A stretch of DNA of 64,000 nt from Rhizorhabdus phycosphaerae. Its GTDB lineage: Bacteria > Pseudomonadota > Alphaproteobacteria > Sphingomonadales > Sphingomonadaceae. This document shows positions 5,304-51,330 of this stretch, piece after piece; within the stretch, counting starts at the first letter, position 1; each line of letters opens with the position of its first letter. The position numbers were made by a program, and so were the translations under genes. The stretch is from assembly GCF_011044255.1 (NCBI RefSeq), contig NZ_CP049107.1, forward strand, positions 434,001-498,000, written 5' to 3'. Below the pieces are notes generated by a model, which had not been told where the DNA came from, made no database searches, and was given only the letters and a program-made list of their open reading frames with translations.

Positions 5304-5321
5304 GTTCCGATCTGCGGAGAC
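5304..5321. promoter_or_regulatory. Putative regulon operator, site A1
   Basis: Inverted repeat GTTCCG-ATCTG-CGGAGAC. It is one of two sites in the iclR upstream region; its TCCG core is exactly 21 bp (two helical turns) from that of site A2. It aligns with the repeats found before the island's other promoters. Confidence 0.5.
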
Positions 5322-5322
5322 A

Positions 5323-5342
5323 TTTATCCGACAGGCGAATAA
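5323..5342. promoter_or_regulatory. Putative regulon operator, site A2
   Basis: Inverted repeat TTTATCCG-ACAGG-CGAATAA, 75 bp before the iclR start. Its left half and spacer match the other sites closely (compare site B, with the same ACAGG spacer). Autoregulation of iclR is inferred. Confidence 0.5.
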
Positions 5343-5356
5343 TTTGTTGAACAAAT
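5342..5356. promoter_or_regulatory. Perfect 15-bp palindrome in the iclR promoter
   Basis: ATTTGTTGAACAAAT is a perfect 7-1-7 palindrome directly abutting operator A2, and AT-rich in a GC-rich background. It could be part of the promoter or a second protein-binding site. I did not see it in front of the other operons. Confidence 0.45.
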
Positions 5357-5417
5357 CGGTCATATGACATTCTCTTGGCACTCTCGCGACATCTGGGTGC
5401 CAAGGGGAGTCGTTCAC

Positions 5418-6209
5418 ATGGAAAAAGGCGTTCCTATCCGTTCGATCACACGGTCCATTGCCGCTCTGAAGGCGATCAACCGCCACGGTTCGCTCTCCAT
5501 GATGGAGATCGCGAAGTCTGCCGAAGTCCCCTACCCCACCGCCTGCCGGATCGTGCAGACTCTGCTCTACGAGGGCCTCATCGAACAGGAGCCGGCACGC
5601 AAGCGCTACCGGCCGACTGCTCTGGTCCAGACACTGGCCACCGGCTTCCAGCATGATGACGAACTGGTCCGCATCGCCCGACCGCACATTGTCGGGCTCA
5701 CCGCGCGCGTGGGCTGGCCGGTTTCGATCGCGATACGCGTCGGGCGAGAGATGATGCTGCGCGACAGCACCCACGCCAATTCCTCGCTGACCTTCGAGCA
5801 TTATTATCCGGGTTTCACCCTGCCGATCCTCGACAGCGCGTCGGGGAAGGTGTCGATGGCCTTCGCCGATCCGGAAGAGCGCGAGATGATCCTGCGCTTC
5901 ATGCGCGTCTCGCAGGACATCAACCTCAACTATCTCGCCACGGCCGAGGTCAGTCTCGATGTCGATCGCATCCGTGCGGACGGCTATGCGGTACAGGGGC
6001 GCAACCATTTCAACCTGACGCCGGGCAAGACCTCGTCGATCGCGGTGCCGATCTTCCGCAACGGCCATTTCGAAGCGGCCATGACGATGGTGTTCTTCGT
6101 CGCAGCGATGAAGCTGTCGGCCGCGCTGGAGGCCTATCTCGACGATCTGAAGGCGACGGCAGCCGCTATCAGCTACGACCTGTCCAACGCTCCGATGGGC
6201 AGCGCCTGA
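5418..6209 (+). CDS. IclR-family transcriptional regulator
   Basis: A 263-residue regulator with an N-terminal winged helix-turn-helix: RSITRSIAALKAINRHG leads into MMEIAKSAEVPYPTACRIV and the wing segment LIEQEPARKRYRPT. A C-terminal IclR effector-binding domain follows. The ATG chosen has AAGGGGAG 8 bp upstream; an in-frame ATG 18 codons earlier overlaps the promoter-like region and lacks a ribosome site. It is the only transcription factor visible in the 64 kb. Its own promoter carries two copies of the inverted repeat that recurs before the other island operons, so it is the leading candidate for the regulon's regulator. The effector is presumably the substrate or an intermediate of the pathway. 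Confidence 0.93.
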   Translation: MEKGVPIRSITRSIAALKAINRHGSLSMMEIAKSAEVPYPTACRIVQTLLYEGLIEQEPARKRYRPTALVQTLATGFQHDDELVRIARPHIVGLTARVGWPVSIAIRVGREMMLRDSTHANSSLTFEHYYPGFTLPILDSASGKVSMAFADPEEREMILRFMRVSQDINLNYLATAEVSLDVDRIRADGYAVQGRNHFNLTPGKTSSIAVPIFRNGHFEAAMTMVFFVAAMKLSAALEAYLDDLKATAAAISYDLSNAPMGSA

Positions 6210-6545
6210 TCAGCGCTGCTTCTTCGCGATCGTCGCGGTGAAATCGGGATCCTTATTGGCGACCCAGTCGACGAACTTCTTCACGGCCGGATTGTCCAGC
6301 AGCTGCTGGACATCCATGCCGGCGCGCTGAAGCTCGGAATTGGTGAAGTTCACCGTCAGCGTCTGCTGGCAGATGCCATGCATCGGCACCACGTCACGCC
6401 CGCCCCGGCTCTTCGGGATCGGGTGGTGCCAGATGATCGTGCTGCCGGTGGGGCGACCGCACAGCCAGCAGTGAACGACCGGCTTCGGTGCCTCGTCGGC
6501 AGCGGGCTCGTCATCATAATCGTAGCGGGAGCGTTTGCGGGCCAT
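6210..6545 (-). CDS. Small HNH-type protein
   Basis: A 111-residue protein with an acidic/basic N-terminus, a CWLC zinc knuckle at about residue 26, then the HNH-like core WHHPIPKSRGGRDVV and a HGICQQTLTVNFTN segment. The shape (zinc ribbon plus HHxxPKSxGG) is that of small stand-alone HNH endonuclease-like proteins. Here the final histidine/asparagine part is HGICQ...NFTN, so nuclease activity is uncertain. It is convergent with iclR (the stops abut) and lies 35 bp downstream of the aldehyde dehydrogenase gene. It may be co-transcribed with it but has no obvious role in catabolism. Confidence 0.75.
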   Translation of the reverse strand: MARKRSRYDYDDEPAADEAPKPVVHCWLCGRPTGSTIIWHHPIPKSRGGRDVVPMHGICQQTLTVNFTNSELQRAGMDVQQLLDNPAVKKFVDWVANKDPDFTATIAKKQR

Positions 6546-6580
6546 GGGTCATGCCTTACAGCATGGCGCAACCAACGCAA

Positions 6581-8089: not shown

Positions 8090-9237
8090 ATCTCGACGGT
8101 CCTCGGATCATAGGTGAACAAGCCGAGCGATTCCTCATCCTTCATTTCGCCGAGTCCGAACAGATCGGTATCCTGCCCCTGCATGCGGTCCGCATTGGCA
8201 TTCGATTCCTGCTGGATGAAGGTGGCGCGTTCGTGGCGGGCCTTCTCGTAGCGCGCCAGACCTTCGGCGGCACTGTCCGATGCCGCCAGCGCTCGTGCCA
8301 GAACCACGGCATCCTCGATCCCACAGGCCGCGCCATGACCGAGGAAAGGCGTCATCGCATGCGCCGCATCGCCGATCAGCGTGACATTGCCGTCGAGTAC
8401 CCAGCTCGGCATCGGCTTGCGGGCATTGATGGCCCATTTGAACAGAGGTTGCGTGTTCGCAGCCTTGAGCAAACGCTGGGCATCGGCGCACCAATGGCCG
8501 AAGATCGACTGCAGTTCGGCGGGATCTGCGGGGGTCGTCCAGCCTTCCTCGTTCCAGCCCTCCTGCCGCGCGAAGAACACGAAGTTCATCACCTTGCTGC
8601 CGCGTACATTGTAGCGGTTCATCATCGCGCCGGGGCCGATGATGACACCCGGAAAGTCGGAAAGATCCTGTATGTCTGCGGTAACCGGCACCAGGCAGCG
8701 CCAAGCGACATGGCCGGTGAAGTGCGGGCTGTCGTCGCCGAAGCGCTGGCGGATGACGCTCTTCACGCCATCGGCGCCGACCAGCACGTCCGCGCCGAAA
8801 GTCCGTCCGTCGGCCAGGGTCACCGTCGTCCCCTCGCTCGATATCACCGGAGCCCCGGCGATCATCCGAACTCCGGCCCGCTCGGCCGCGCGGGTCATTA
8901 CGCCGTGGAGGTCGGCGCGATGCACGGTGATATAGGGCGCGCCATATTTTTCACGCTGGGTTGAGCGGTCCATGGCGACCAGCGTCCGTCCATCCTGCCA
9001 ATGCTGGATGCGCTGGCGGCTCGGTTCCACCGCGACCGCGGCCGCTTCCTCGCAGATACCGATGAAGTCGAGGCCCTTCATCGCATTGGGCGTCAATGTC
9101 AGCCCGGCGCCGATCTCCCCGAACTGGGGAGCGGATTCAAGCAGCGTCACCTCGAAGCCCTGCTGGGCGAGCGCGGCCGAAGCGGTCATGCCCGCCACGC
9201 CGCCTCCGACGACCAGGATCGTGCGGGGCTTGCTCAC
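8086..9237 (-). CDS. FAD-dependent monooxygenase (salicylate hydroxylase-like)
   Basis: A 383-residue group-A flavoprotein monooxygenase. It has the N-terminal Rossmann FAD motif VGGGVAGMTASAALA, a GADGVKSVIRQ (DG) motif at about residue 160 and the second FAD motif LIGDAAHAMTPFLGHGA at about 300. These three motifs in this spacing define aromatic/heteroaromatic hydroxylases such as salicylate or 6-hydroxynicotinate 3-monooxygenase. A likely role is NAD(P)H- and O2-dependent ring hydroxylation in the cytoplasm. It is coupled by 4-bp overlaps both to the upstream deacetylase-family gene and the downstream aldehyde dehydrogenase. Confidence 0.92.
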   Translation of the reverse strand: MSKPRTILVVGGGVAGMTASAALAQQGFEVTLLESAPQFGEIGAGLTLTPNAMKGLDFIGICEEAAAVAVEPSRQRIQHWQDGRTLVAMDRSTQREKYGAPYITVHRADLHGVMTRAAERAGVRMIAGAPVISSEGTTVTLADGRTFGADVLVGADGVKSVIRQRFGDDSPHFTGHVAWRCLVPVTADIQDLSDFPGVIIGPGAMMNRYNVRGSKVMNFVFFARQEGWNEEGWTTPADPAELQSIFGHWCADAQRLLKAANTQPLFKWAINARKPMPSWVLDGNVTLIGDAAHAMTPFLGHGAACGIEDAVVLARALAASDSAAEGLARYEKARHERATFIQQESNANADRMQGQDTDLFGLGEMKDEESLGLFTYDPRTVEI

Positions 9238-10160
9238 TTGGTGCCGCCCTGAAGCTGGCCGGGAATATGGCTCTCATGGTTGGCGAGATACCAGTCCGCG
9301 ATCTCCTCGCGGGTCGCCCACCACACGCCGGGCAGCGACTTGGCATGCTCGATGAACTCACGCAGCGCGCGGATGCGATGCGCACGGCCAGACACGTGCG
9401 GGTGAAGGCCGAGGTTCATGATCCGGCCGGTCTTCGCGCCCTCGGCGTGGAGTACATCGAGTTCTTCGATCAGCGCATCGCGATATTCGTCGGTCGTATA
9501 ATTTTTGCGAGTGATGAAGGTGAAGTCATTGATCTCGTTCGAATAGGGAACCGAAACGATCGGACCGTGCGGGGTCCGCAGCAGATAGGGCTGATCGTCG
9601 TTCATGATGTCGCAGTAGAAGGTGCAGCCATATTCGGCGAGGATGTCCGCCGTCTGCAGCGTGCCGCGCAGCGACGAGGAGAGCCAGCCCTTCGACTTGC
9701 GCCCGGTGAACTTCTCGAACTGGTCGAGGCTGCGCAGGATGATGTCGCGCTCTTTGTCGGGTTCATGGGCGAAGCTCGAAAGTAGTTCCCCCTGCTCCCA
9801 ATTGTGCGTCAGCAATTCCCAGCCGCGTTCGAGCACGGCGTCGGTCATCGCCTTGCGCCGTTCGAAGGTGACCGCATTGGTCGTGCAGCTCGCCTTGACG
9901 CCCAGCTCGTCGAACAGGTCGATCAGCCGCCACAGGCCCACGCGCTGGCCATATTCGCGCCAGGTAAAATTGGGGAAGTCGGGGGTGTTGCCCGGAAGCA
10001 CATCGGGCAGAATCGCCGGTCCGCCTGCATAATAGGGCTTGTCCGTATCCTTGGTCAGGTCCCAGGTTTCGAGATTGAACGTCAGGATCAGCGCAACCCG
10101 TGCGCCGTTCGGCCAGACCAGGGGATTGCGCTGCGGCAACGGGACATAATCATATTCCAT
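9234..10160 (-). CDS. PuuE/allantoinase-type polysaccharide deacetylase-family hydrolase
   Basis: A 308-residue member of the NodB-homology (carbohydrate esterase 4) fold, without a signal peptide. The order NGARVALILTFNLETWD, WREYGQRVGLWRL, CTTNAVTFERR, GWELLTHNWEQGE and LGLHPHVSGRAHRI is that of the cytoplasmic PuuE-like allantoinase/imidase branch rather than of peptidoglycan deacetylases. The NHxE-like and HPHxxGR elements provide metal ligands. These enzymes hydrolyse C-N bonds, often in cyclic amides, which fits a nitrogen-heterocycle pathway. It is coupled to the monooxygenase by ATGA overlap and lies 56 bp after the amine oxidase gene. Confidence 0.85.
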   Translation of the reverse strand: MEYDYVPLPQRNPLVWPNGARVALILTFNLETWDLTKDTDKPYYAGGPAILPDVLPGNTPDFPNFTWREYGQRVGLWRLIDLFDELGVKASCTTNAVTFERRKAMTDAVLERGWELLTHNWEQGELLSSFAHEPDKERDIILRSLDQFEKFTGRKSKGWLSSSLRGTLQTADILAEYGCTFYCDIMNDDQPYLLRTPHGPIVSVPYSNEINDFTFITRKNYTTDEYRDALIEELDVLHAEGAKTGRIMNLGLHPHVSGRAHRIRALREFIEHAKSLPGVWWATREEIADWYLANHESHIPGQLQGGTK

Positions 10161-10216
10161 CAGTCACTTACCTTCGACTTCTCGCCACCGGTGGCAGCCT
10201 TATCCGATCAAATTCT

Positions 10217-11683
10217 TTAGGCCGTCAAAACTTCCAACGCGACACGTTCGGCCGACTCCAGCGCGCCTTCCAGGCCCCGCGCGGCGAGTGCGGTATGTTC
10301 GCCGCAGAAATGCATGCGGCCGGCGGGACGGATCATCTCGTCAACCCAGCTCACCTGCCCCGGGCCGAAATAGGACACGTCGCCACCATTGAAGCGTTCG
10401 CCCGCCCAGCTGAAATAGCTGTGCGCTGCAACCTTGCCCTTGGCGGCGGGACGCAGTTTCTCCAGCTGGCGCACGACCATTGCCTTTGCCATCTCCGGCC
10501 CCATGCGATCCCAGTGGAGCGCGAGATTGCCGCGCGCCTGGACGATGAAGCCCGTGACCTCCTCGGGCGTTGCGCCATAGCGTTGCGGCATCACATTGCC
10601 GAGCAGTCCGTCGGTCCACATGCCGGGGGCGAGCTTGTCCTCCTCCCAGAAGGGCGCGTTCGCCGTGACGAACACCATCGAGATGGGCTGGTAGCCGAGC
10701 TGGGCGACGGCGCGCGCCTGCACGCCTTCGAGGGCGGGCAGCAGCTTGACGTTGCGCAGCGCCGAGAAGGGCAAGGAGCAGATCAGCCGCGCGGCGCTGA
10801 AACTCGACCCATCGGCGCAATGCACCGTCACGCCCGTCGCATCCTGGTCGATCGCTACCGCCTCGCGCCCGAGCAGCACGTCGCCCTTGAGCAATTTCGC
10901 CATGCCCGTAGCAAGGTGGATATTGCCGCCCTTGACCGACAGCGAACCCGTCCCCGCCCCCATCTGGGCTTTGATGAAGCCGTCATTATATTCCATCATC
11001 AGAGACGAAACGCCCCAGGCGTCGATGCCATAATAGGGCGCCAGATCGTGGCACAGATGGATCGCTGCATCAGACAGCCCCTGGGCCTTCAGATAGTCGT
11101 ACAGCGAGATGTCGAGCGCGGCGTTGGCCGGATCGTGCCAACTCGTCCAGTCGGTGAGACGGTTCTTGTCAGAGACGATCTTTCCGACGAGTTCGCCGGG
11201 CAGGAGCATCTTGAATTTCTCGGGGAAGGGATTGCCCGGGAAAGTGGCCCATTCCGCCCGTGTCAGCGGCTTGCCGTTGATCCACAGCAGCGGCGGCGCG
11301 CCAAAGCGATAGCGCGCGCCAACTTCCTGCAGCGCCACGCCTGCACGATGGGCCGCGTCTATCCCGCGGCCATAGCCCTCGGCCATCGAGTTGAAGCCCA
11401 TCTCGGGATAGCCGGGCTGGTCGAGCAGCGTCCAGATCCGTCCACCGACCCGCTCGCGCGCTTCCAATATGGTGACGCTCTTGCCCTCCTGCTCGAGCAT
11501 CCAGGCGGCCTGAAGGCCGGACACACCCGCCCCCAGAACGATCACGTCGCTTTGTCCCGGCTTGCGCAAGCCGGTAGCCGACGGGGCAGTTGCCTTGCGC
11601 CTGTCGGCGCCAAGCGCAGGGACAGCCGCGAGGGCTGCAAGGCCCAGCCCGCCCAGGGAGAATGTGCGCCGGTCGATCATCAT
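10217..11683 (-). CDS. Tat-exported flavin amine oxidase
   Basis: A 488-residue FAD-containing amine oxidase. The N-terminus (MMIDRRTFSLGGLGLAALAA) is a twin-arginine signal, so a folded flavoprotein is probably delivered to the periplasm. Downstream are the dinucleotide motif VIVLGAGVSGLQAAWMLE and the ERVGGR motif, with the C-terminal FCGEHTA flavin contact. Such enzymes oxidise primary or secondary amines to imines/aldehydes. It is the first gene of a five-gene minus-strand operon divergent from the hydrolase-leuCD operon. A paralogue with the same layout is encoded near 47-48.5 kb. Confidence 0.92.
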   Translation of the reverse strand: MMIDRRTFSLGGLGLAALAAVPALGADRRKATAPSATGLRKPGQSDVIVLGAGVSGLQAAWMLEQEGKSVTILEARERVGGRIWTLLDQPGYPEMGFNSMAEGYGRGIDAAHRAGVALQEVGARYRFGAPPLLWINGKPLTRAEWATFPGNPFPEKFKMLLPGELVGKIVSDKNRLTDWTSWHDPANAALDISLYDYLKAQGLSDAAIHLCHDLAPYYGIDAWGVSSLMMEYNDGFIKAQMGAGTGSLSVKGGNIHLATGMAKLLKGDVLLGREAVAIDQDATGVTVHCADGSSFSAARLICSLPFSALRNVKLLPALEGVQARAVAQLGYQPISMVFVTANAPFWEEDKLAPGMWTDGLLGNVMPQRYGATPEEVTGFIVQARGNLALHWDRMGPEMAKAMVVRQLEKLRPAAKGKVAAHSYFSWAGERFNGGDVSYFGPGQVSWVDEMIRPAGRMHFCGEHTALAARGLEGALESAERVALEVLTA

Positions 11684-11781: not shown

Positions 11782-11802
11782 GCTCACCACCAGTCGGATA
11801 GA
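11782..11802. promoter_or_regulatory. Putative regulon operator, site I (weak left half)
   Basis: The right half CGGATAGA is identical to that of site F, with the usual 5-bp spacing. The left half GCTCACCA is poor (4 of 8 consensus positions). It sits between the divergent amine oxidase and hydrolase operons, 98 and 82 bp from their starts. Confidence 0.3.
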
Positions 11803-16331: not shown

Positions 16332-16351
16332 CTGTTCCGACAGGCGGACAG
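16332..16351. promoter_or_regulatory. Putative regulon operator, site B
   Basis: CTGTTCCG-ACAGG-CGGACAG, a nearly perfect inverted repeat (one extra T in the left arm), 92 bp before the first DUF1838 gene. It is one of the best matches to the island consensus. Confidence 0.55.
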
Positions 16352-24909: not shown

Positions 24910-25232
24910 TCGGACGATCTCCCCATCCGTCGAGGCCCCTGCGGGTCGGGCATCCGCAAGATCTCGCCCGGATCGGGAGCCAAGTTGCCGCGCAATGGCC
25001 GCCGCCGCTCGGGCCATAGCAGAATCTCCGATTGGCGGATACTCACAAGTCTGATCGTTGTGAATGGAGGGGATCGGATCAAGCCTCATAATCCGAAAGC
25101 AGGCTCGCCGAATTTCCGGCTTACTCGCAGCTGGACGGCCCATAAACTGCTTCAAACACTGAAACAGCCGGGATTTTCCGGAAGATATTCTTGCGACTTC
25201 GAAATAATTCGGCGTCGGATAGGGGGCAGAAC
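24910..25232. other. Divergent regulatory region (transporter / TonB receptor 2)
   Basis: 322 bp without a gene. It contains operator site C near its left third, a GGGGAG ribosome site for the leftward gene and AGGGGG for the rightward gene. I see no further open frame with a ribosome site or any RNA gene. Confidence 0.6.
25024..25043. promoter_or_regulatory. Putative regulon operator, site C
   Basis: AATCTCCG-ATTGG-CGGATAC, matching the island's inverted repeat. It lies 114 bp from the transporter start and 189 bp from the receptor start in the divergent region. Confidence 0.5.
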
Positions 25233-27887: not shown

Positions 27888-27906
27888 CTGCCCGCACAGC
27901 GGACAA
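27888..27906. promoter_or_regulatory. Putative regulon operator, site D
   Basis: CTGCCCG-CACAG-CGGACAA, 54 bp before the preferred start of the next gene. The right half matches the consensus; the left half has one substitution in TCCG. Confidence 0.4.
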
Positions 27907-27960
27907 AGCCGCGAAGAGATGCGCTGCCACTCGAAGACCGGGCATCCTTCGAACCGACAT

Positions 27961-31158: not shown

Positions 31159-32004
31159 TTAGGCCCTGGCGTCCCACAAGGGCTGCAGAACCGCTGCCGG
31201 AGCCTTCAAGACGTCCGGCCGTCGTGCGGCGGTAGCCTCGAGAAAGGCAGGCGGGAGCGATTCCATCGTCGCATTCTGACGGCCTATGCCGGTGGCGGTG
31301 AGATGGCCGGGGCGGTCGCCCATCTCCATCCATGGGCGCCACGAGCAGACATTGGTGAAGCTCACCTCGCTGGTCACGCGGGTCGCGCCGGGGCGGATGA
31401 GGTCGTGCCGTTTGGCGTGGAAGGTGTTGCTTTCGGAATAGCGGAAAGGCCGCTGCGCACCGGGGAAGCTCATCGCGGTGCGCGATCGTTCGGTCACCCA
31501 GACATCGTCGCCGCGGACGTCGAACGGCAATACATCGTGCTCCATCTGCAGGCCCGGAACCTCTCGCGCGATGTGAAAAGACAGATCCCTGCCGAAGCGG
31601 ATTTTCGACGGCGGCAATCCCCCGGTCGGTACCTTGCAGTCTTTTCCGGTATAGGGGTTCTTCCAGAGGTCCAGAGCCTTGCCTGTTACAGGATCGGTGA
31701 ACCAGGCCAGTTCGAAGTTGACCGCCTCATAGCCATCGGCGACCTGGCGGTAGCGAGAGAAGACCGCCGACACGACCGCAAACAGCGGATCCATGCGATC
31801 CTCGACCACGCCATAATAGCGCGCCGAGACCCAGCTGGTGATCAGTCCCTCGTCCAGCGCCCCGCGCATCATGATGAAGGTGCGCAACCGGCCTTCGGGG
31901 CTGGTGACGTCGAGCGGATTACCCGCCGCAAGCGCCGGCCTTCCGGCCATCAGCAGTGCCCCGGTTGCGCTCAGCCCGGTGAGCAGGTCGCGGCGGTCGA
32001 TCAT
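31159..32004 (-). CDS. DUF1838 protein 2, Tat-exported
   Basis: A 281-residue protein with twin-arginine signal MIDRRDLLTGLSATGALLMA. It carries the family marks LWKNPYTGKDC (about residue 115) and SWRPWMEMGDRPGHL (about 225), and is the shortest of the four copies here. The function of the family is unknown. It is transcribed alone, divergently from the operon of two alpha/beta hydrolases, with operator site E in the middle of the shared promoter region. Confidence 0.82.
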   Translation of the reverse strand: MIDRRDLLTGLSATGALLMAGRPALAAGNPLDVTSPEGRLRTFIMMRGALDEGLITSWVSARYYGVVEDRMDPLFAVVSAVFSRYRQVADGYEAVNFELAWFTDPVTGKALDLWKNPYTGKDCKVPTGGLPPSKIRFGRDLSFHIAREVPGLQMEHDVLPFDVRGDDVWVTERSRTAMSFPGAQRPFRYSESNTFHAKRHDLIRPGATRVTSEVSFTNVCSWRPWMEMGDRPGHLTATGIGRQNATMESLPPAFLEATAARRPDVLKAPAAVLQPLWDARA

Positions 32005-32080: not shown

Positions 32081-32101
32081 TCTATCCGACTTGCGGACAG
32101 G
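32081..32101. promoter_or_regulatory. Putative regulon operator, site E
   Basis: TCTATCCG-ACTTG-CGGACAG, almost at the midpoint of the divergent region: 76 bp from the leftward DUF1838 start and 72 bp from the rightward hydrolase start. Confidence 0.55.
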
Positions 32102-32173: not shown

Positions 32174-33133
32174 ATGAAACGCCTGATCAAGCTTGTCGGT
32201 CTGCTCATCATCGCCATTGCGGCCGTGCTCGGTTCGATGCGGATGGGGCTGTGGAATCCGTCCTATGAGAATGTCAGGGCGACCCAGGCCACGGCGCCAT
32301 CGACGTTCGAGAAGATCGGCACCGCTACGCTTCACATGCGCGACGAAGGTCCGCGCGACGGGCCTGCGGTGATCATGCTGCACAGCTCGATGACCAATCT
32401 GCGCGAGTGGGATGGCTGGGCCGATGCGCTGAAGGACAAATATCGGGTCATTCGGTTCGACTGGCCACCCTATGGGCTGTCGACGGATACGGCTCCCTCG
32501 ACGGGCATGCCGGGAGTGGTGGCTCTGCTGGAGAAGGTCGTCGCGGCCAAGGGGCTCGAGCGCTTCGCGATAGTCGGCACGTCGAGCGGTGCGACGATTT
32601 CCACGCTCTATGCCGCCCGCCATCCCGAGCAGGTGACCGCGCTGGCGCTCTCCGCCCTCCCCCTGGAGGCGCCACCAACGACCGATTTCAGCCGGCTGAT
32701 GTGGGCGATGATCTGGACGCACGAAACGCTCGTCCCGAATTATTATCCGCGCGCCTATTATCGCCAATCGCTTTCCGAACTGTACGGGCGGCCCGAGCGC
32801 CTGACCGATGAGACGGTCGACTGGTATTACCAGACCAACACGATCCCTGGCGGCTTCGCGCGGGTGAAGGAATATTGGGAGGCCAACAAGAAAGCCGTCT
32901 GGGCCAAGGGCGCTGCGGGCGATGCGGCGCAAGTCACCGCGCCGATCCTGCTGCAGTGGGGCGATCGCGATCCGGTGCTGCCCAAGGATCTCGCGACCAA
33001 GGCGGTCTCCCAGTTCGAGCGAGCGAAGGTCGATGTGATCCACTATCCCGACGTCGGCCATTATCCGATGCTCGAACTGCCCCGGGATACCGCGCGCGAC
33101 TTGCGCACATGGCTCGACAGGACCGTGAAATGA
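32174..33133 (+). CDS. Alpha/beta hydrolase with N-terminal membrane anchor or signal
   Basis: A 319-residue hydrolase. The N-terminus (MKRLIKLVGLLIIAIAAVLG) is a single hydrophobic helix, an uncleaved anchor or signal peptide. IMLHSSMTN is in the oxyanion region, the nucleophile elbow is GTSSG (about residue 137), the acid is in WGDRDPVLP and the histidine in DVGHYPMLE, so the triad is complete. The sequence from LHMRDEGPRDGPAV onward closely follows the exported hydrolase at 11.9-12.9 kb. It is first in a three-gene operon with 4-bp and 1-bp overlaps. Confidence 0.88.
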   Translation: MKRLIKLVGLLIIAIAAVLGSMRMGLWNPSYENVRATQATAPSTFEKIGTATLHMRDEGPRDGPAVIMLHSSMTNLREWDGWADALKDKYRVIRFDWPPYGLSTDTAPSTGMPGVVALLEKVVAAKGLERFAIVGTSSGATISTLYAARHPEQVTALALSALPLEAPPTTDFSRLMWAMIWTHETLVPNYYPRAYYRQSLSELYGRPERLTDETVDWYYQTNTIPGGFARVKEYWEANKKAVWAKGAAGDAAQVTAPILLQWGDRDPVLPKDLATKAVSQFERAKVDVIHYPDVGHYPMLELPRDTARDLRTWLDRTVK

Positions 33134-34476: not shown

Positions 34477-35478
34477 TCAGGGCTTTTTGTAGCCGGGAAC
34501 CTCGGGCGGCACGTCCCGCGCATATTTGCCGAACGTGTCCACCACGCCGGCGTCCGGTCCGTCGGTCGGGTCGTCGAGCAGATCGGGACGATCCTTCACG
34601 ACGCGGTCGAGAACGGCGCGCGGGATGTCGTCATGCGAGCCGGTGATCTTGTAGGAGTGCATGCGACCGATCAGTACGCCGTCCACGCCGGACTGCCCCA
34701 TCTTCATCCACGGCCACCACGGCCCCTGCCGCATGAAGCCCCCCTGATAGCGCGCGGACATCACCGAGCGGTCGTCGATCTCGGCGCGCGGTGTATAGAG
34801 AACGAAATGCTCGGACGGGTTGACGACTCGACCCGACGACGCCTTCGGCCAGCCCTCGGGAGTGACCGGGTTCACATATTCATGGGCATAGTCCCAGCCC
34901 AGAAGATATTGGTCGCCGATCACCTGCCAGGGCAGCCGGAAAGGCTCGGCGTCGCTGCCGCCTTGGGCATCGTTATTGACGGTCCTGCTGCCGTTGACCT
35001 CATAGACCTTGCGCGTGAGGCCCAGCGTCCCCCGGAACTTGTCGTTGAGGAAGGGCCAGGTTTCGACCCGCTCTCCGGTCCAGGGATTGTCCCAGACGTC
35101 GATGATCGCACCGCTGGCGAGGTCGGTGAAATAGCCGCATTCCTTGCCCATGACCTTCACGCTGCCATCGGGCAGGATCAGGTTGCGGATATTGGCGAAG
35201 CCCTGAAAGCCGAACAGCGGCTTGGCGCGCTTGCCCTTCACGACGGCATATTGGACGCCCTGATAGGCGCTGATGACGGGCTTGGGGCCGATCGTGCCCC
35301 ACATCTTGGCGAAGCCATAAAGATTGTCGCGCGGATCCTGAATGTCGAGCGGACGGACCGGGCCGCCGCCCCTAGACGCGATCCCCGGCCCGGAGAGAAC
35401 GGCAGCTCCTGCGGCAAATCCCATACCGCTGAGCAGGCCGCGTCGGGTCACGGCGCCGGTCATCGTGTCGATCAGCAT
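34477..35478 (-). CDS. DUF1838 protein 3, Tat-exported
   Basis: About 333 residues. After MLIDTMTGAV comes a twin-arginine signal, TRRGLLSGMGFAAGAAVLSG. Family marks are NLYGFAKMWG, VWDNPWTGE and WWPWMKMGQSG. Three candidate starts exist. The one used follows GGTGG by about 6 bp and ends 1 bp from the LLM gene stop; one 8 codons upstream overlaps that gene and one 5 codons downstream would start right before the signal. It is the last gene of a five-gene operon (AllA-like, small protein, methyltransferase, LLM, DUF1838). The function of the family is unknown. Confidence 0.82.
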   Translation of the reverse strand: MLIDTMTGAVTRRGLLSGMGFAAGAAVLSGPGIASRGGGPVRPLDIQDPRDNLYGFAKMWGTIGPKPVISAYQGVQYAVVKGKRAKPLFGFQGFANIRNLILPDGSVKVMGKECGYFTDLASGAIIDVWDNPWTGERVETWPFLNDKFRGTLGLTRKVYEVNGSRTVNNDAQGGSDAEPFRLPWQVIGDQYLLGWDYAHEYVNPVTPEGWPKASSGRVVNPSEHFVLYTPRAEIDDRSVMSARYQGGFMRQGPWWPWMKMGQSGVDGVLIGRMHSYKITGSHDDIPRAVLDRVVKDRPDLLDDPTDGPDAGVVDTFGKYARDVPPEVPGYKKP

Positions 35479-35479
35479 G

Positions 35480-36556
35480 TCAGGCCACCAACTCCCTATC
35501 ATGCTGCGCCACGGCAGCGCGGAAGGCCGGGATCAGGTCTCGGCCGATGCGTACGACATCCTCGACCGGATCGAAGCCGCGCAGGATGAAGGCGGACACG
35601 CCAGCCTTGTAATAATCCATCAGCGCATCGGTCAGTTGTTCGGGTGTGCCGACCAGCGCGCCCGAATTGCTCTGTCCCCCGCGCAGCTGGTTGATACCGT
35701 TCCAGAAGCATTTTTCCAGCCGGTCGCCCCGCGCCGCGATCGCCTCGGTTCTCCGGAAGCCGTCGGCCTTGGCAGCGGGTGCATTGACCGCCAGCTTCCC
35801 CATGTTCGCCGCCACCGCATCGCGGATCGCGTCGGCCCGCGCCCAGGCGGCTTCCTCGGTATCGGCCATGACGATGCGGATCGACATCAGGAAGCGCGGA
35901 TCACGACCGTGGCGCGCGGCCTCGGCGCGGACCTTCGCCACCACCTCGGTCATACCCTCGACCGTGTCCGACAGGGTCGCGAAACAATCGCAGCATTCGC
36001 CCGCGACCGCGAGCGCAGCCGGGCTCATCCCACCAAAATAGACCGGGATTTCGGTGTCGGTCGGCTTGACCACGGCAAAGCCGTTGGTGAAGCGGAACCA
36101 GTCTCCCTCATGGCTGAACGGTGCCTGCTCGGTCCACATCCGCCGGAGCAGACCGATATATTCGCGGGCCCGGTCATAACGCTCGACCTTGCTCAGATAG
36201 TCGCCGTCGGCCTGCGTCTCCTCGTCGCTCGCCGCCGTGATGATATGGACGCCGACGCGGCCGGGCATCAGCCGGTCGAGCGTGGCGAGCATTCGAGCCG
36301 CCATGGTCGGCGGGATGAATCCGGGCCGGTGCGCCAGCATGACGCCCAGGCGCTTGGTCTGAGCGGCCACATAGCCGGCGATGGTGAAATTGTCGGGCAT
36401 CGACGCCGCATTGGCGACCAATACCTTGTCATAGCCCCATTCGTCGTGGAGCCGCGCCATGCGGGCGATGCCTTCGGGATCGAAGGTTTCGAACGGCAGC
36501 GGATGGGTTTCGCTCGAAATATTGTGGTTGAGCAGGCCGTTAATCTCTACCGGCAT
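35480..36556 (-). CDS. LLM-class flavin-dependent monooxygenase (SsuD-like)
   Basis: A 358-residue TIM-barrel flavin-dependent oxidoreductase of the luciferase-like group, SsuD branch. Characteristic stretches are LVANAASMPDNFTIAGYVAA, LMLAHRPGFIPP-type RPG loop, RVGVHIITAASDEE and IPVYFGGMSPAA, with late ALVGTPEQLTDAL. These two-component enzymes use reduced FMN and O2 to oxygenate sulfonates, amines or N-heterocycles. No reductase gene is visible nearby. It is sandwiched with 1-bp spacing between the methyltransferase and DUF1838 genes. Confidence 0.9.
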   Translation of the reverse strand: MPVEINGLLNHNISSETHPLPFETFDPEGIARMARLHDEWGYDKVLVANAASMPDNFTIAGYVAAQTKRLGVMLAHRPGFIPPTMAARMLATLDRLMPGRVGVHIITAASDEETQADGDYLSKVERYDRAREYIGLLRRMWTEQAPFSHEGDWFRFTNGFAVVKPTDTEIPVYFGGMSPAALAVAGECCDCFATLSDTVEGMTEVVAKVRAEAARHGRDPRFLMSIRIVMADTEEAAWARADAIRDAVAANMGKLAVNAPAAKADGFRRTEAIAARGDRLEKCFWNGINQLRGGQSNSGALVGTPEQLTDALMDYYKAGVSAFILRGFDPVEDVVRIGRDLIPAFRAAVAQHDRELVA

Positions 36557-36557
36557 G

Positions 36558-37742
36558 TTACTTTACCGCAGAACAGGCATACCAGGAGCCGAGCAGCGTC
36601 CGGCCGTTGGGGTCTCCTTCGGTGAAGAAGTCGGATCGTTCAGGCTTCAGGAAGAAGGTGCCCTTGCGATAGCCGGCAGCGACAGCATCTCGCTCGAACC
36701 CCGCCTTTTCGGCGACCTGCACCCAGTCGGTGCGCGCCAGCGAGGTCATGAAAGGTTCGTTGTTGTAATGGCTTTCGAAGTCGCAGCGCATCTGATCCCA
36801 CAGCGACAGATGCTCGTGCCGGGGCGGCACGTCGACATGGCACATGACGCCACCTGGCCGGAGCAGGCGGAAGCATTCCTTCATGATCGCGCGCATGCCC
36901 TTGGCCGACGTCTCGTGCATCAGCGCGGACGAGGTGACGAGGTCGAACATGCCATCCTCGAAATCGGTGGCTTCGGCATTTTGCTGGCTGAAGTGGATGG
37001 CGACGCCCATCGCTTCGGCGCGGGCATGGCCATAGCGCAGCATCGGCGCGCCGACATCGATCGCATAGACCTCGGCGTCCGGGAAAGCCTGGGCGATGGC
37101 GACAGTGGAATGCCCGACCGAGCAGCCAAGATCGAGGATGCGGCGTGGTTTAAGATCCGGATAGAAATCATGGACGTGGCTGGCCAGCGTGTGGCCGCGC
37201 CCGTCATTCTTCCATCCGCCGTTGAGGTTACGCAGATAGGTCGAGGCGAAGCGATCGTACAGCGCACCGGCGCGGAAATCCTTGTCAGCCGTATCGACTG
37301 TATAGCTGCCCGGCATGCGGTGATGGTCGATCGCGGCAATGTAGCGCGGGATTTCCAGGTCGGGGTTCAGGCGCAGGCTGCCCTTGGGCGTCGCGACCTG
37401 TGCTTCGACCTTGGCGGCGAGTTCGTCGAACTGGCGATCGATCGCACCGTCGAGCACCTGCCAGATGCGATCCTGGTAGAACAGGGAGAGCGTCAGCCAG
37501 AGCTGGTGCAGGGGATGTGCCTCGAGCGCCTGGCGGACCTGCGCGCTTGCCTTCGGCGTGGCGCCGGTCTTCGCAGTAATCTGCGGCACGATCACTTCGT
37601 CGAGCAGACGACGGTCGAGCGGGTCGAGATTGCGGTTGGTCCACATGCGCATGGCGAGGAAGTGATCCTCCATCGCCTGCTCGTCATGGGTGGCCTGCGG
37701 CATCACCGCGTGGCCGAAGTGCTGATGGTTCATCTCGGACAT
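36558..37742 (-). CDS. SAM-dependent methyltransferase 1 (with long N-terminal domain)
   Basis: A 394-residue class I methyltransferase. The SAM-binding motif RILDLGCSVGHST is at residues 201-213, followed by acidic IDVGAPML, HARAEAMGV and DLVTSSALMHETS. The first about 195 residues form an extra helical domain containing HRMPGSYTVD and AGALYDRF. The ATG has AAAGGA 8 bp upstream; the frame is open further but without support. It is paralogous over its whole length to methyltransferase 2 at 43-44 kb. It is paired with a small protein gene 19 bp upstream. The substrate is unknown. Confidence 0.88.
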   Translation of the reverse strand: MSEMNHQHFGHAVMPQATHDEQAMEDHFLAMRMWTNRNLDPLDRRLLDEVIVPQITAKTGATPKASAQVRQALEAHPLHQLWLTLSLFYQDRIWQVLDGAIDRQFDELAAKVEAQVATPKGSLRLNPDLEIPRYIAAIDHHRMPGSYTVDTADKDFRAGALYDRFASTYLRNLNGGWKNDGRGHTLASHVHDFYPDLKPRRILDLGCSVGHSTVAIAQAFPDAEVYAIDVGAPMLRYGHARAEAMGVAIHFSQQNAEATDFEDGMFDLVTSSALMHETSAKGMRAIMKECFRLLRPGGVMCHVDVPPRHEHLSLWDQMRCDFESHYNNEPFMTSLARTDWVQVAEKAGFERDAVAAGYRKGTFFLKPERSDFFTEGDPNGRTLLGSWYACSAVK

Positions 37743-37761
37743 GGGATCGTTCCTTTGAAGA

Positions 37762-38118
37762 TCAGTCGGCGGCGACGCGGGCGACTTCGCCCTCATAGGC
37801 CTGTTGTTCGGCGAGCGCTTCCGGCAGCAGCCGGTCACGTGCGATGCCCAGCACACGGTCGTAGATCGCCTGTCGATAGGCGCCGCGATGTGCGCGCACC
37901 TCGGCGTCGGGCGAGAAAGCATCGATATCTGCGGGACCATGCAGCCCCGCCGCCTTCAGCAGCCGCTCATTGGCGTCGAGCCGGTCCTTCAGAACCACGA
38001 CCTCGCCAAGCAGAGCCAGCACCATGCCGGCCAGCGCGTCGGTCGTCTGGTCGCCGAAGACGACAGGCTGGCTGCCCTTGGGAAAGACCTTGCGGTCGAG
38101 ATTTACGCGTTCTGCCAT
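37762..38118 (-). CDS. Small methyltransferase-associated protein 1
   Basis: 118 residues with a central amphipathic helix LAGMVLALLGEVVVLKDRLD that continues NERLLKAAGL, then a charged C-terminal helix (ALAEQQAYEGEVARVAAD). No known domain is recognised. The helix aligns with the equivalent part of the small protein next to methyltransferase 2 (MTLANELSVLRDRLDSAERV), so the two are paralogues and their linkage to a methyltransferase gene is conserved. A coiled-coil accessory subunit of the methyltransferase is a reasonable guess. Confidence 0.75.
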   Translation of the reverse strand: MAERVNLDRKVFPKGSQPVVFGDQTTDALAGMVLALLGEVVVLKDRLDANERLLKAAGLHGPADIDAFSPDAEVRAHRGAYRQAIYDRVLGIARDRLLPEALAEQQAYEGEVARVAAD

Positions 38119-38122
38119 CGGT

Positions 38123-38692
38123 CTACTCCGGAATGTCGAAACGGAAGACGTGGCCCGTGCGCGCCACGATGTCCTTCTTGTCGAGGTCGGGTCCGTGGGC
38201 CTCCTCGGTCACCGCGTCCTTGCCTTTCAGATCATAGCCCGTCTGGCTCGAAAGGATCACGACGAGGTCGGTCCCGTCTTCTACCGCAAAAGGAAACTCG
38301 TGCCACGTGCCGAGATGCAGCGAGAAGCCCGCGCTGCCGTCGAAAAGAAACGCGCGGACCTGGTCGAGTGCCGGCAACTCGCCTGCAGACGGCGGCGCCA
38401 TCACCGCCACGAAAGGCTTTCCGGCCAGTGGAATGAACACCTGCGTATGCTGGAAATGCCGCTCCATGTAACGGACCTCGCCCGGACGGCGGTCCATGTG
38501 CGCGACGGTGATCTCCACCGGATGCTCGCAGGAGAAGCGCGCCGGATAGCTCATCTTCACCGCGCCCTTGTAGAAATCGACCGAGACCGGCGAAACATGA
38601 GGGACGCGGCCGATCACCTGCCCGAACGGTGCAAGCGCCTCGGGCGTTGCATGCTCGATAGTCAGCGTGATTGTCTCTGCTGCGGTCGTCAT
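38123..38692 (-). CDS. Ureidoglycolate lyase (AllA)-family protein
   Basis: About 189 residues. It has ATPEALAPFGQVIGR at the N-terminus, RHFQHTQVFIPLAGKPFVAV in the centre and HLGTWHEFPFAVEDGTDLVV in the last third, the order seen in the cupin-like AllA family. That family cleaves ureidoglycolate to glyoxylate and urea, and the conserved metal or substrate histidines are present. The long open frame continues upstream over the divergent promoter, but AGGA lies 3-6 bp before a pair of adjacent ATGs; the second is used here. It is first gene of the five-gene operon. Confidence 0.83.
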   Translation of the reverse strand: MTTAAETITLTIEHATPEALAPFGQVIGRVPHVSPVSVDFYKGAVKMSYPARFSCEHPVEITVAHMDRRPGEVRYMERHFQHTQVFIPLAGKPFVAVMAPPSAGELPALDQVRAFLFDGSAGFSLHLGTWHEFPFAVEDGTDLVVILSSQTGYDLKGKDAVTEEAHGPDLDKKDIVARTGHVFRFDIPE

Positions 38693-38761
38693 CATGATTC
38701 CTGCGGTAGCGATCGACGGCATGATGCGGCAGCCTCGGCGCTCCTCATCCCCGCAGGCACA

Positions 38762-38782
38762 TCTGTTCGCAGACCGGATAGA
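38762..38782. promoter_or_regulatory. Putative regulon operator, site F
   Basis: TCTGTTCG-CAGAC-CGGATAGA, 69 bp from the leftward AllA-like start and 75 bp from the rightward FAD-oxidase start, again near the centre of the divergent region. Confidence 0.5.
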
Positions 38783-38857
38783 ATGCCGCGCCGGTTCCGC
38801 TGCCACGGGTCGCATGGCATGACGGCGGCGAAGGCACGAAGCGCGGGGCTCTAGGCA

Positions 38858-42841: not shown

Positions 42842-42862
42842 GCTATCCGCCACGCGGACAGC
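42842..42862. promoter_or_regulatory. Putative regulon operator, site G
   Basis: GCTATCCG-CCACG-CGGACAG(C), an inverted repeat with one mismatch between its 8-bp arms. It is 82 bp from the DUF1838 start and 80 bp from the methyltransferase start. Confidence 0.55.
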
Positions 42863-44605: not shown

Positions 44606-44622
44606 GTCAGGGGGATCCCGAC

Positions 44623-45902: not shown

Positions 45903-45920
45903 CGATTTTGCTTCCATGAG

Positions 45921-46952: not shown

Positions 46953-47008
46953 GCCCGCCCCTCGTCAGATATTGGTCGCATATGGCTCCTCGTCGAGCGT
47001 CAGCGCGA

Positions 47009-48508: not shown

Positions 48509-49461
48509 TTGCCTTTGATCTCCGTATCGAGCCACCAACCGAATTCGTCGATCCAGTGGTCCGCGGTTGTGCCGCGCGTCGCCATGCCGAAGCCATGAGC
48601 GCCACGCTCGTAGAGGTGGACTTCAGGCCGATAGCCGGCCGCGAAAAGTTGGTCGTAGAAGCTGCGAAAGCCGACCCCGACTGCCAGATCGTCCTGCGCC
48701 ATGGCGAGGAACATCGGAGGAAGGCGCCCGGGTGCGGGAACAGGCTTGGGTTGGAGCCACGGCTCCTTCGGTGTTCCCTCCGGGAAGGGCAGATTGGCCG
48801 GGGGGATCGGCGGATTGGTCGATCCGAATGGAAAACCATAGATCAGCCCCGCAAAGTCGGGCCGGTCCCTGGGCTCAGCCGCGAACATCGCCATACCGGC
48901 GACATGCCCGCCCGCCGAAAAGCCCATTATGCCGACGCGATGCGGATCGATCCGCCATGTCTTTGCATTGGCCCGCACGATCCGGAGAGCCTCCAGCGCA
49001 TCCTCCACGCCCGGATCGCCGCCGACACCCGGTGCCAGCGTTTCCTGCACGCGCTTGCGCATCGCCTCGTTGGTCTCGCCGGGGGGCGACTGGATCAGAC
49101 GATATTTGAGTACGAATGCCGCAACGCCTCGTGCGGCAAGCCAGCGGGCCACGCGGGTGCCTTCATGGTTGATGGCCAGCAGGCGGAAGCCTCCTCCCGG
49201 AGCGACCACCACCGCCATGCCATTGGCTCTGGCCGGGTCAGGCAGAAAGGGCTGCAATGTCGGAATGGTCACGTTCCACAGCGTCTCGCCATTGTCGCGC
49301 GCCTCTTCCTGGACCGGAACCTTGGCCAGCCCGGGCCAGCCCTTCATCGCCGGCGGGCCTTTCGGCCACACGGGCATCGGCGGCAATTCCCCTTCGGTGG
49401 GCTGGGCGGCGATCGGCGCTGCGAGGACAAGCGCCATCATGGCCAGAATATTCCGCATCAT
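48505..49461 (-). CDS. Exported alpha/beta hydrolase (acetyl-esterase/BD-FAE-like)
   Basis: 318 residues with signal MMRNILAMMALVLAAPIAAQ. It has MAVVVAPGGGFRLLAINHEG (HGGG-type oxyanion loop, here PGGG), nucleophile elbow GFSAGG at about residue 180, acid near AQDDLAVG and histidine in RGAHGFG. This is the bifunctional feruloyl/acetyl-xylan esterase-like group of small exported esterases. It is coupled by ATGA overlaps to the upstream transporter and the downstream amine oxidase. Confidence 0.9.
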   Translation of the reverse strand: MMRNILAMMALVLAAPIAAQPTEGELPPMPVWPKGPPAMKGWPGLAKVPVQEEARDNGETLWNVTIPTLQPFLPDPARANGMAVVVAPGGGFRLLAINHEGTRVARWLAARGVAAFVLKYRLIQSPPGETNEAMRKRVQETLAPGVGGDPGVEDALEALRIVRANAKTWRIDPHRVGIMGFSAGGHVAGMAMFAAEPRDRPDFAGLIYGFPFGSTNPPIPPANLPFPEGTPKEPWLQPKPVPAPGRLPPMFLAMAQDDLAVGVGFRSFYDQLFAAGYRPEVHLYERGAHGFGMATRGTTADHWIDEFGWWLDTEIKGK

Positions 49462-50855
49462 CGGACTGTCTCCGCATGGGGCATCATCGCCGCTTCGGCC
49501 GCGGCAAGCTTCACTGGATCGAGGTCATAGCGGAGCACCGCCAGTATCGCGGCGCCCATGGCAGCGGCCGGGATAGCGGACACGCACAGCCGTATCGCAA
49601 GAATGGCGCCCTCGCCCTGGACGGCGCCGGCTGCAGCCGAAGGGACATATCCCATGGCGGACAGAAAAGCGCCCATCGCAGCAAGCGCGGCGGCAGAAGA
49701 GAGCTTGTCGAACAAGGTCGTGAAACCGGCGAAGGCGCCCTCCCGCCGCTGCCCGCTCTGCACATAATCCCAGCGTACCGCGTCCGACAGCATGGCGTAG
49801 GCGCAAAGGATCATGCCTCCGCCTGCAAGACCACTCACGAGGGCGCGGGTGATGATCGCGACCTGTCCTTCTCCGGGAACGGCCCACATCCACGAGAGGT
49901 GCGACGCCGCGAACAGGCCCATCGCGGCGATATAGCAGGGCTTCTTTCCGACCGAGCGCGACAGCCGAACCCAGGCCGGCATGGAGACGACCAGGGCCAC
50001 GGTGGACGCCATGAAATAGGTACCCAGCAGTCCGTCGCCGACCTTGAGCACATGCCGGCTGAAATAGGCCAGTGCGGCCGACCCGATGGCGGTACCGAAC
50101 AGCAGCAGGACGTGCGCCAGTGCGAGGATGCGGAAAGGCCGGTTGGCCCAGGCCAGACGCGCCTGCCGGCCAAGGTCGACGCCGCGCGGAGCATCGGGCG
50201 CCGCGACGGTGCGCGGGGCAGTCGACAGCAGGCGGACAGCCAGTGAGGTGGCGATCAGGACCACCGCACCCACCGTCAGGGCCATGGCGAGATGCCCTGC
50301 GCGGTCCGCACCCGTCCGCGCCAGCATCCAGGCAGGAAGCGTCGACCCGAGCAGCGTCCCCACCGCATTGCCATAGGTCCGCCACGCCATCAGCCGCGTG
50401 CGCTCATGAGGATCGGCGGAGCTTTCGATCACCATCGCGAAACCGGGTATCGTCAGCAGGGTGAAGCCTGAGGCGTGCAGCGCGAGGGCCAGCGTGACGA
50501 AGATCTGGGTGGCAAGGATCGAACCGAAATCCGGAATACCGAAAAGCATTGCGAGCCCGAGCGGCATGGCGATGCCGCCGGCCATCAGAAAAGGCAACCG
50601 CCTGCCCCAGCGGGTTAGGGCATTGTCGCTCCACGCGCCCACCGCAGGATCGAGAAACCCGTCATAGATCTTCACGCCGGCAAAGATCAGCCCGGCTGCT
50701 CCTGCAGCCATGCCGAGATTATCGGTCAGATAGCGCAGTCCCAGGACCGTCACGACATTCTGGCCGGCGGCATGAGCCACCGGGACGAGGAACGACCCGG
50801 CACGAATGGCCCAGGGTCGTACTGGCTTGTCGGTCAGGCCTGGCGCGTCGCCCAC
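49458..50855 (-). CDS. GPH-type MFS transporter 2
   Basis: 465 residues, 12 helices. The GPH mark KIYDGFLDPAVGAWSDNALT follows helix 2 and GMILCAYAMLSDAVRWDYVQ, with RREGAFAGFTTLFDKLSSAA, the second half. It is similar in architecture to the GPH transporter at 23.5-24.9 kb. The GTG start has no clear alternative. It is second in the operon after the DUF1330 gene (90 bp away) and coupled to the esterase gene. It may import the products of periplasmic hydrolysis. Confidence 0.92.
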   Translation of the reverse strand: MGDAPGLTDKPVRPWAIRAGSFLVPVAHAAGQNVVTVLGLRYLTDNLGMAAGAAGLIFAGVKIYDGFLDPAVGAWSDNALTRWGRRLPFLMAGGIAMPLGLAMLFGIPDFGSILATQIFVTLALALHASGFTLLTIPGFAMVIESSADPHERTRLMAWRTYGNAVGTLLGSTLPAWMLARTGADRAGHLAMALTVGAVVLIATSLAVRLLSTAPRTVAAPDAPRGVDLGRQARLAWANRPFRILALAHVLLLFGTAIGSAALAYFSRHVLKVGDGLLGTYFMASTVALVVSMPAWVRLSRSVGKKPCYIAAMGLFAASHLSWMWAVPGEGQVAIITRALVSGLAGGGMILCAYAMLSDAVRWDYVQSGQRREGAFAGFTTLFDKLSSAAALAAMGAFLSAMGYVPSAAAGAVQGEGAILAIRLCVSAIPAAAMGAAILAVLRYDLDPVKLAAAEAAMMPHAETVR

Positions 50856-50945
50856 ACAGCTACTCCGCAGTGTCTTGGATCCGCGGAAGACTGCCGCCGG
50901 AGATCGATGGCGAGAGACGCGCCCTGCGCTCTATCCGCCCTGCGG

Positions 50946-51236
50946 TCAGCCCTCGACCAGCATCACGCTGATATCTGCCAGTCCCTCGCGCAGCTTCTTG
51001 ACCTCGGCATATTCGGGCGAGTTCCAGAAGCGCAGCGCGGTCTCGCGGTCGGGCCATTCGATGACGATGCCGCCCGCGCCGTCCGGCCCCTCGCCTTCCA
51101 GCACCTGCCCGCCGCGGCCGCGTACGATATATTTGCCGCCCATCGCTTCCGCGAGCTTGGCCGTCGCAGGCGAATAGCGCGACATGAAGGGTTCGCGATC
51201 ATGAACATGGGCGGTGATGATGAACCATGCGGGCGT
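50946..51236 (-). CDS. DUF1330-family small protein with probable ACG start
   Basis: 96 residues if started at ACG. The DUF1330/dimeric ferredoxin-like fold is clear from FIITAHVHDREPF through GKYIVRGRGG to VIEWPDRETALRFWNSPEY. The only in-frame ATG lies 17 codons into the conserved domain and would delete the first beta-strand. An ACG codon is preceded by AGGAG with 8-bp spacing and gives MPAWFIITAHVHDREPF, the normal family start. The next upstream in-frame stop is a TGA, and no ATG, GTG or TTG lies between. Either ACG initiates or the base is a mutation or error of ATG. First gene of a seven-gene operon. Confidence 0.8.
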   Translation of the reverse strand, partial: TPAWFIITAHVHDREPFMSRYSPATAKLAEAMGGKYIVRGRGGQVLEGEGPDGAGGIVIEWPDRETALRFWNSPEYAEVKKLREGLADISVMLVEG

Positions 51237-51309
51237 GGGCTCGACTCCTGGATGATGCAGAGCCGCCTGCTTTGCGCGGCGCCCCTGCGCCCGTCATGTC
51301 CCCCGTGAC

Positions 51310-51330
51310 AATCTCCGACAGGCGAACGAC
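51310..51330. promoter_or_regulatory. Putative regulon operator, site H
   Basis: AATCTCCG-ACAGG-CGAACGA, 73 bp before the ACG start of the DUF1330 operon. The left half is identical to site C and the spacer to sites A2 and B. Confidence 0.45.

Follow-up and report, generated by a model that had tools for sequence, protein, structure and literature searches.

Can a long series of catabolic operons be placed under one transcription factor, and if so, can that factor be named from its operators? The question is raised by a 64,000-nucleotide stretch of the Rhizorhabdus phycosphaerae genome (contig NZ_CP049107.1, bases 434001–498000 of a single-contig 4.33-Mb genome), referred to here as the window. 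An earlier note had listed ten copies of an inverted repeat in front of its catabolic genes and proposed that the local IclR-family regulator reads them, defining a regulon of about 50 kb. The palindrome is very probably the operator of this IclR protein, which would control a regulon of either sign, and of the readings weighed below this one is the best supported by sequence comparison. Coordinates are those of the window unless preceded by G000, which denotes the whole genome. The cluster was taken as G000 383.7–485.9 kb (102 kb; 2.4% of the genome), and as its genes were called by simple GC-frame prediction, start codons are approximate.

The iclR gene and its promoter

The regulator matches both Pfam models of its family above their cut-offs, IclR_C (6.5e-13, 49 bits, cut-off 24) and HTH_IclR (2.8e-08, 33.8 bits, cut-off 22), and is, as the earlier note had it, the only regulator among the 50 window open reading frames (ORFs) scanned with Pfam. 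AAGGGGAG precedes its start at 5418, and a MEKGV-type start recurs in relatives, the closest of which are Novosphingobium proteins at most 95% identical (among named records, from which very near ones were possibly left out). From such records 31 loci were taken with IclR orthologs 72–95% identical, each reaching only 10 kb from iclR, and a first matrix was built from their 31 iclR-promoter sites, containing no window sequence. The consensus of these promoters is TTATCCG-(A/C)C(A/T)G(G/T)-CGGATAA. The palindrome is the top match upstream of iclR in all 31 loci, on which the matrix was trained, with the weakest matches in L031, L051 and L052. In 29 loci its centre precedes the iclR start by 83–88 bp, and in the other two by 65 bp. 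Five of seven distant IclR homologs (50–60% identity; L005, L006, L008, L010 and L011) likewise have a site upstream. In 13 of the 31 promoters the best second site precedes the main operator by exactly 20 or 21 bp.

Two copies 21 bp apart had been described before the iclR gene of the window. The one at 5324 is borne out, being the strongest match in the window (Table 1), whereas that at 5304 is at most a degenerate partner. As an independent operator 5304 was rejected: it is not in the top 40 places of the first matrix and scores poorly with the second.

Recovery and enrichment of the palindrome

All ten stretches of the earlier note occur at the positions given there, and the eight best window places of the first matrix comprise seven of them and an intragenic place at 9483 (12.3 bits) that the note did not list; 50931, which it missed, ranks next. 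Selected rows from five classes of promoter in other genomes gave a second matrix, averaged over the classes, which places 11783, 50931, 25024 and 32082 above 5304, 16333, 38763 and 51311 (Table 1). In the resulting list 50931 is added, 38763 is doubtful, 27888 is unsupported, and the seven others are kept, 5304 excepted. The consensus first proposed, CTRTCCG-N5-CGGACAG, fares less well as a strict description, since it is exact only at 32082 and 42843; seven of the ten sites lie within three mismatches of it, and those given as 5304, 5323 and 51310 do not. Used as a strict pattern it finds three places in the genome, which is too strict, and the matrix was used instead; of the three, the one that lies outside the cluster (G000 3692093) has 7.3 bits, and a place with one mismatch (G000 3227700, 15.6 bits) falls inside a predicted ORF. 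With up to three mismatches the same consensus has 44 window matches, strands counted separately, against 17.5 ± 5.5 in shuffled sequence, and none of 100 shuffles reached 44. Varying the spacing of the eye-made consensus gave 13 hits at spacing 5 and 12 at spacing 15 for a score of at least 11 (4 against 0–2 at 12.5 and above), and the spacing test says little on its own because these two counts are so close.

The sites are concentrated in the cluster. The 17-mer TATCCGNCNGNCGGATA with at most two mismatches occurs at 14 places in the genome; seven of these, including an intragenic one, belong to the 102-kb cluster. Against a background of 20 random 20-kb stretches of the same genome (400 kb), the first matrix finds 9 places in the cluster and 3 in the background at 13 bits or more, and 6 and 0, respectively, at 17 bits or more. 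Column permutations of the matrix that keep the palindrome reached the observed count in none of 500 trials at 10 and at 13 bits, and in 6 of 500 at 8 bits. When the iclR promoters of the 31 loci are masked, these loci still give 40 hits of at least 13 bits; permuted matrices average 2.5, and one permutation in 100 gets to 40. The second matrix finds eleven cluster places at 15.7 bits or more (last row of Table 1) and 2 in the 400-kb background; at 12 bits or more the numbers are 18 and 15.

Conservation before orthologous genes

If the palindrome is an operator it should accompany orthologous genes elsewhere, and for several promoters it does; for reference, a score of 8 bits is attained by 1.3% of 370-bp stretches taken at random. 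All 18 loci with an amine oxidase ortholog have the site before it, with a score of at least 10 bits in 17 and as (C/T)TATCCGACAGGTGGTGA(G/C) in 13, and the hydrolase divergent to the amine oxidase has it at 7.4 bits or more in 17 of 19. Because it recurs in all 18 amine oxidase loci, 11783 is among the best-kept sites; the earlier note had called it weak, together with 27888. For the DUF1838 gene at 42843, orthologs at least 66% identical carry the site at 8.7 bits or more in 20 of 22 genomes, the remaining two being L132 (5.9 bits) and L150 (1.1 bits); two distant DUF1838 homologs have no site. G034 has a DUF1838 gene and iclR on different contigs, and TTATCCGGCAGTCGGATAA (30 bits) lies 55 bp upstream of the former. 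On the other side of 42843, methyltransferase-like orthologs at least 78% identical reach 8 bits in five of six cases and 6.9 bits in the sixth, all centred 79–84 bp before the start (L053 was left out of this count because of a coordinate artefact), and three homologs of 38–39% identity have no site near −80. Aldehyde dehydrogenase (ALDH) genes have a site of at least 8 bits in 15 of 28 loci, in two of which it is the iclR operator itself.

The motif also travels with the regulator. Among 27 genomes with an IclR ortholog (4 of the 31 loci being left out), 20 contain an exact motif place, and of the 27 such places 19 are iclR promoters and seven of the other eight lie within 45 kb of iclR. In the group of its own genus, by comparison, exact motif places occur in 2 of 14 genomes, and only R. 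phycosphaerae itself has an IclR match above 56% identity. Among 60 genomes, R. phycosphaerae included, 8 encode an IclR protein at least 50% identical; a DUF1838 homolog (E <= 1e-60) is found in four of the 60, with identities of 71, 44 and 45% besides the genome's own, and a gene for a PuuE-like protein likewise in four (83–90% besides its own), all of them among these 8.

Several observations weigh against so simple a picture. A site of at least 8 bits precedes hydantoinase A in only 9 of 24 loci and the flavin monooxygenase in 5 of 13, and of 19 loci with a homolog of the hydrolase at 32174, five reach 6.6 bits and two reach 8 bits; all five belong to the ten in which that hydrolase is at least 60% identical. 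The 16333 site is missing in its one tested homolog (L030, 62% identity), and the ortholog comparison offered no homolog within its limits for the promoters at 25024 and 50931, nor for that at G000 393267. The IclR homologs L007 and L009 (52 and 50% identity) have no upstream site, and three genomes with an IclR of 50–51% carry neither the DUF1838 nor the PuuE-like gene. The second matrix reaches 13 bits at ten places in the 400-kb background, the −21 place of the window's own iclR promoter scores −5.2 bits with the best partner at −39, and the operators left of the window are nearer to predicted starts (about 9–86 bp). Further points of this kind concern the sign of regulation and a second regulator, and are taken up with them below.

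Predicted operator sites in the window and to its left

The positions and scores of the predicted operators are collected in Table 1.

Table 1. The regulator gene and predicted operator sites, with scores from the two matrices built on other genomes (window coordinates unless marked G000)
Feature	Position	Strand	First matrix (bits)	Second matrix (bits; background hits per 100 kb)	Site centre to most plausible start (bp)	Remarks
IclR-family regulator gene	5418..6209	+				start at MEKGVPI; ORF can open from 5364
Main iclR operator (predicted)	5324..5342	.	29.4		85	
Possible tandem partner of main iclR operator, degenerate, 21 bp further upstream	5304..5320	.		3.4; 177		
Predicted operator, amine oxidase (10217–11683 −) / alpha/beta hydrolase (start ~11885 +)	11783..11801	.	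10.3	20.1; 0	109/93	divergent pair
Moderate operator before DUF1838-TonB-carboxylesterase operon (16444 +)	16333..16351	.	13.3	12.2; 3.75	102	
Predicted operator, MFS_2 operon (−) / TonB receptor (+)	25024..25042	.	18.9	19.5	124 and 158 or 200	
Predicted operator, DUF1838 (31159–32004 −) / alpha/beta hydrolase (32174 +)	32082..32100	.	17.8	21.1	87/83	divergent pair
Doubtful site before FAD_binding_4 gene (38858 +)	38763..38781	.	2.9	12.1; 3.75	86	inside end of ORF 37970–38854
Predicted operator, DUF1838 (start ~42759 −) / methyltransferase-like (start ~42943 +)	42843..42861	.	18.3		93/91	divergent pair
Predicted operator before MFS_2 operon (−, start 50855)	50931..50949	.	6.8	16.8; 0.25	85	1 mismatch to the consensus first proposed
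Possible weak operator upstream of small DUF1330 gene (50946–51185 −)	51311..51329	.	10.8	13.1; 2.5	135	from first listed start
Eleven cluster places at 15.7 bits or more	5324, 11783, 25024, 32082, 42843, 50931; G000 387561, 393267, 398601, 421454, 433241	.		>=15.7		

In the three divergent pairs at 11783, 32082 and 42843 the site centres are symmetric, in keeping with the near-midpoint positions claimed for divergent regions; 25024 is the exception, and there the claim does not clearly hold. The site at 38763 is strong in only L048 among the three homologs tested. The stretch at 27888..27906, before the alpha/beta hydrolase at 27919 (+), was rejected as unsupported (1.8 bits with the first matrix; 9.4 bits with the second, a score that has 11.25 background hits per 100 kb), and chance remains its likely explanation. 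An exception to the regulon is the DUF1838-luciferase-methyltransferase operon at 34477–37940 (−), before which the matrix finds nothing reaching 6 bits over 250 bp. Beyond 11783, on the hydrolase side, half-site-like stretches (TTTTCCGAAAG, TATC-GCC-like) are seen at about 20 and 40 bp in the window and in several relatives, a hint of an array of three sites at steps of about 20 bp.

Five further sites, the G000 entries in the last row of Table 1, lie to the left of the window by up to 46 kb and score 10.3–19.4 bits; four are between predicted genes, and 433241 (position −759 relative to the window) falls where an over-long ORF begins. Because of these five sites the span of the regulon would be about 98 kb, and not the 50 kb first proposed. 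The sites at G000 398601 and 433241 each sit in a 34-bp stretch, the two stretches differing in two bases, and between them lies a block of 34.6 kb that keeps ALDH and hydantoinase A apart. In L027 and other relatives the two genes have just one copy of the stretch between them. This suggests that the block may have been inserted, with promoter DNA duplicated so that each end now carries an operator copy.

Proposed mechanism and sign of regulation

The IclR protein (5418–6209) would read TATCCG-N5-CGGATA, with departures tolerated, one dimer binding each palindrome and, at iclR, a second dimer probably sitting 20–21 bp (two helical turns) away. A single central operator could serve both arms of a divergent pair, and the protein would also regulate its own gene. 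Since most window centres are 83–109 bp before start codons, the bound protein would be placed just upstream of the promoter, and from this position, the symmetry of the three divergent pairs and model similarity, activation is the somewhat favoured sign. It would presumably follow the sensing of a pathway substrate or intermediate. The operons so controlled would extend from G000 387.6 kb, some 46 kb short of the window's left edge, as far as window position 50.9 kb. That one IclR protein runs a super-regulon of this kind, about 100 kb long and devoted to an undescribed substrate, with around a dozen operators that keep a near-fixed distance to many starts and were retained as the cluster was rearranged in Novosphingobium and Sphingomonas, is a tentative proposal, with odds a little short of even.

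The best NCBIfam model for the protein is PRK09834 (146.9 bits, below the cut-off of 299), which we take to be MhpR, an activator, followed by PcaR/PcaU/PobR (TIGR02431; 79 bits, below the cut-off of 284.75). This order of similarity speaks for activation, although weakly, because both scores fall below the cut-offs, and that has to be counted on the other side. The chief competitor keeps the same regulator and the same operator, and differs only in sign: the protein would be a repressor sitting on promoters and released by an inducer. Effector-relieved repression of this kind is described for PheR in the available part of PMC13273656. The main iclR operator is followed, about 21 bp downstream, by a conserved half-site that would suit autorepression, and the centre of the ALDH operator is only 2–20 bp before the start in relatives; both observations tell against activation. 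Repression is harder to reconcile with the 83–109 bp of most window centres and with the distances kept in 29 of the 31 iclR promoters, which are farther from the start than −22, the commonest position in the family according to the part of PMC8222616 available. Measured against that figure, the operator distance is on the long side. Repression is a serious possibility, held at appreciably lower probability than activation.

It is improbable that another regulator of the cluster binds the palindrome and that iclR is merely one of its targets. A candidate does exist, a GntR/UTRA protein (L105) encoded at G000 407770–408660 (−), left of the window and in the left half of the cluster, and its presence counts against assigning the sites to IclR. 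With limits of E <= 1e-40 and half its length, however, no match to it was found in the 31 loci, which extend only 10 kb from iclR, whole genomes not having been searched. The iclR gene, which was the basis for choosing the loci, has the site as its top match in every one of them, and a 17-bp palindrome with a tandem spacing of 20–21 bp is IclR-like.

Chance or base composition, by which short GC-rich palindromes would simply have been picked out by eye, can be dismissed for the main sites with near certainty, since, although relaxed matches to TATCCGNCNGNCGGATA are common (253 places genome-wide at three mismatches, no excess over the 303 of a reversed control), the independent matrix, the background density, the permutations and the sites before orthologs all speak against it.

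Gene content of the cluster

By the Pfam scan, the catabolic genes of the window extend to about 50.9 kb. Their matches include hydantoinase A/B-like, isocitrate lyase/phosphoenolpyruvate mutase-like, alcohol dehydrogenase, ALDH and flavin monooxygenase genes besides IclR, as well as amine oxidases, a LeuC-like aconitase, an isochorismatase, four DUF1838 genes, TonB receptors, major facilitator superfamily (MFS) transporters, and luciferase-like and methyltransferase-like genes. More genes of the kinds found in the window lie to its left, at G000 380–434 kb. Searches of the cluster proteins against Pfam, NCBIfam and solved structures recognised no coherent known pathway.

A protein resembling PuuE allantoinase/deacetylase, encoded at 9237–10160 (−), is without a Pfam match. 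With a mean identity of 91% in 28 loci it is the best conserved of the proteins present in at least 20 of the 31 loci, exceeding IclR itself (87%). Relatives of the DUF1838 gene are found on replicons of 0.7–1.8 Mb in seven Novosphingobium records, for example the plasmids NZ_CP028348.1 and NZ_CP017076.1, whereas that of the present genome is on the 4.33-Mb contig. From 51.4 kb onward the window contains cobalamin genes. Two cobalamin riboswitches (Rfam RF00174) were found at 60235–60428 (−) and 63023–63254 (−), with 128 and 88 bits; the first is just upstream of a TonB receptor (58134–60158 −), and both belong with the neighbouring B12 genes.

If the super-regulon is real, uptake receptors, transporters and several enzyme sets would be under one IclR protein, and uncharacterised enzymes and receptors (the four DUF1838 proteins, the PuuE-like and hydantoinase-like proteins, flavoenzymes and TonB receptors) are tied into one predicted regulon. 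In other sphingomonads the matrix can point to more genes of this pathway, and the regulator offers a direct handle on what the cluster degrades.

Comparison with known systems

Among the papers brought up by literature searches, none describes this regulon, judged by title or abstract. DUF1838 appears in one of them, judged by listing, in connection with an antibiotic cluster. A DNA affinity purification sequencing announcement for N. aromaticivorans names, in the part available, four IclR proteins by locus tag (PMC12352068), and no match was made between these and the IclR protein of the cluster. Among regulators of aromatic catabolism, MhpR and the PcaU-PcaR-PobR group are the nearest models and have similar catabolic targets, with the present protein falling below the cut-offs of both. 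PheR of Sphingobium sp. SHPJ-2, as far as the accessible text of PMC13273656 describes it, is likewise a sphingomonad IclR protein acting on catabolic and uptake genes; it differs in that it represses a phenanthrene operon and has the core GCAACG within a 44-bp footprint.

A likeness is also seen to the group 1 operators of the IclR family, for which the comparison draws on the available portion of PMC8222616 (Suvorova and Gelfand 2021). Features that appear to be shared are a 17-bp odd-spaced palindrome with a YCR...YGR core, a site upstream of the regulator's own gene, and tandem copies, which in the family are 18–22 bp apart between centres. Set against the group 1 motif TGTYCRYW3RYGRACA and its kin by inspection, core and spacing match while ends and centre differ: the present palindrome ends in TAT...ATA and is centred on C(A/T)G, unlike the 11-spaced subgroups with their TGT, GTT or WTT ends and WWW centre. 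None of the four subgroups named in that portion has such ends and such a centre, although the motif may still be in the supplementary tables. The same source describes IclR proteins as generally controlling, besides the gene that encodes them, one or two operons next to it, so that a regulon of about a dozen operator places would be unusual in size. IclR operators of such architecture are already known, and this regulon looks like a well-supported addition to them, and an unusually large one.

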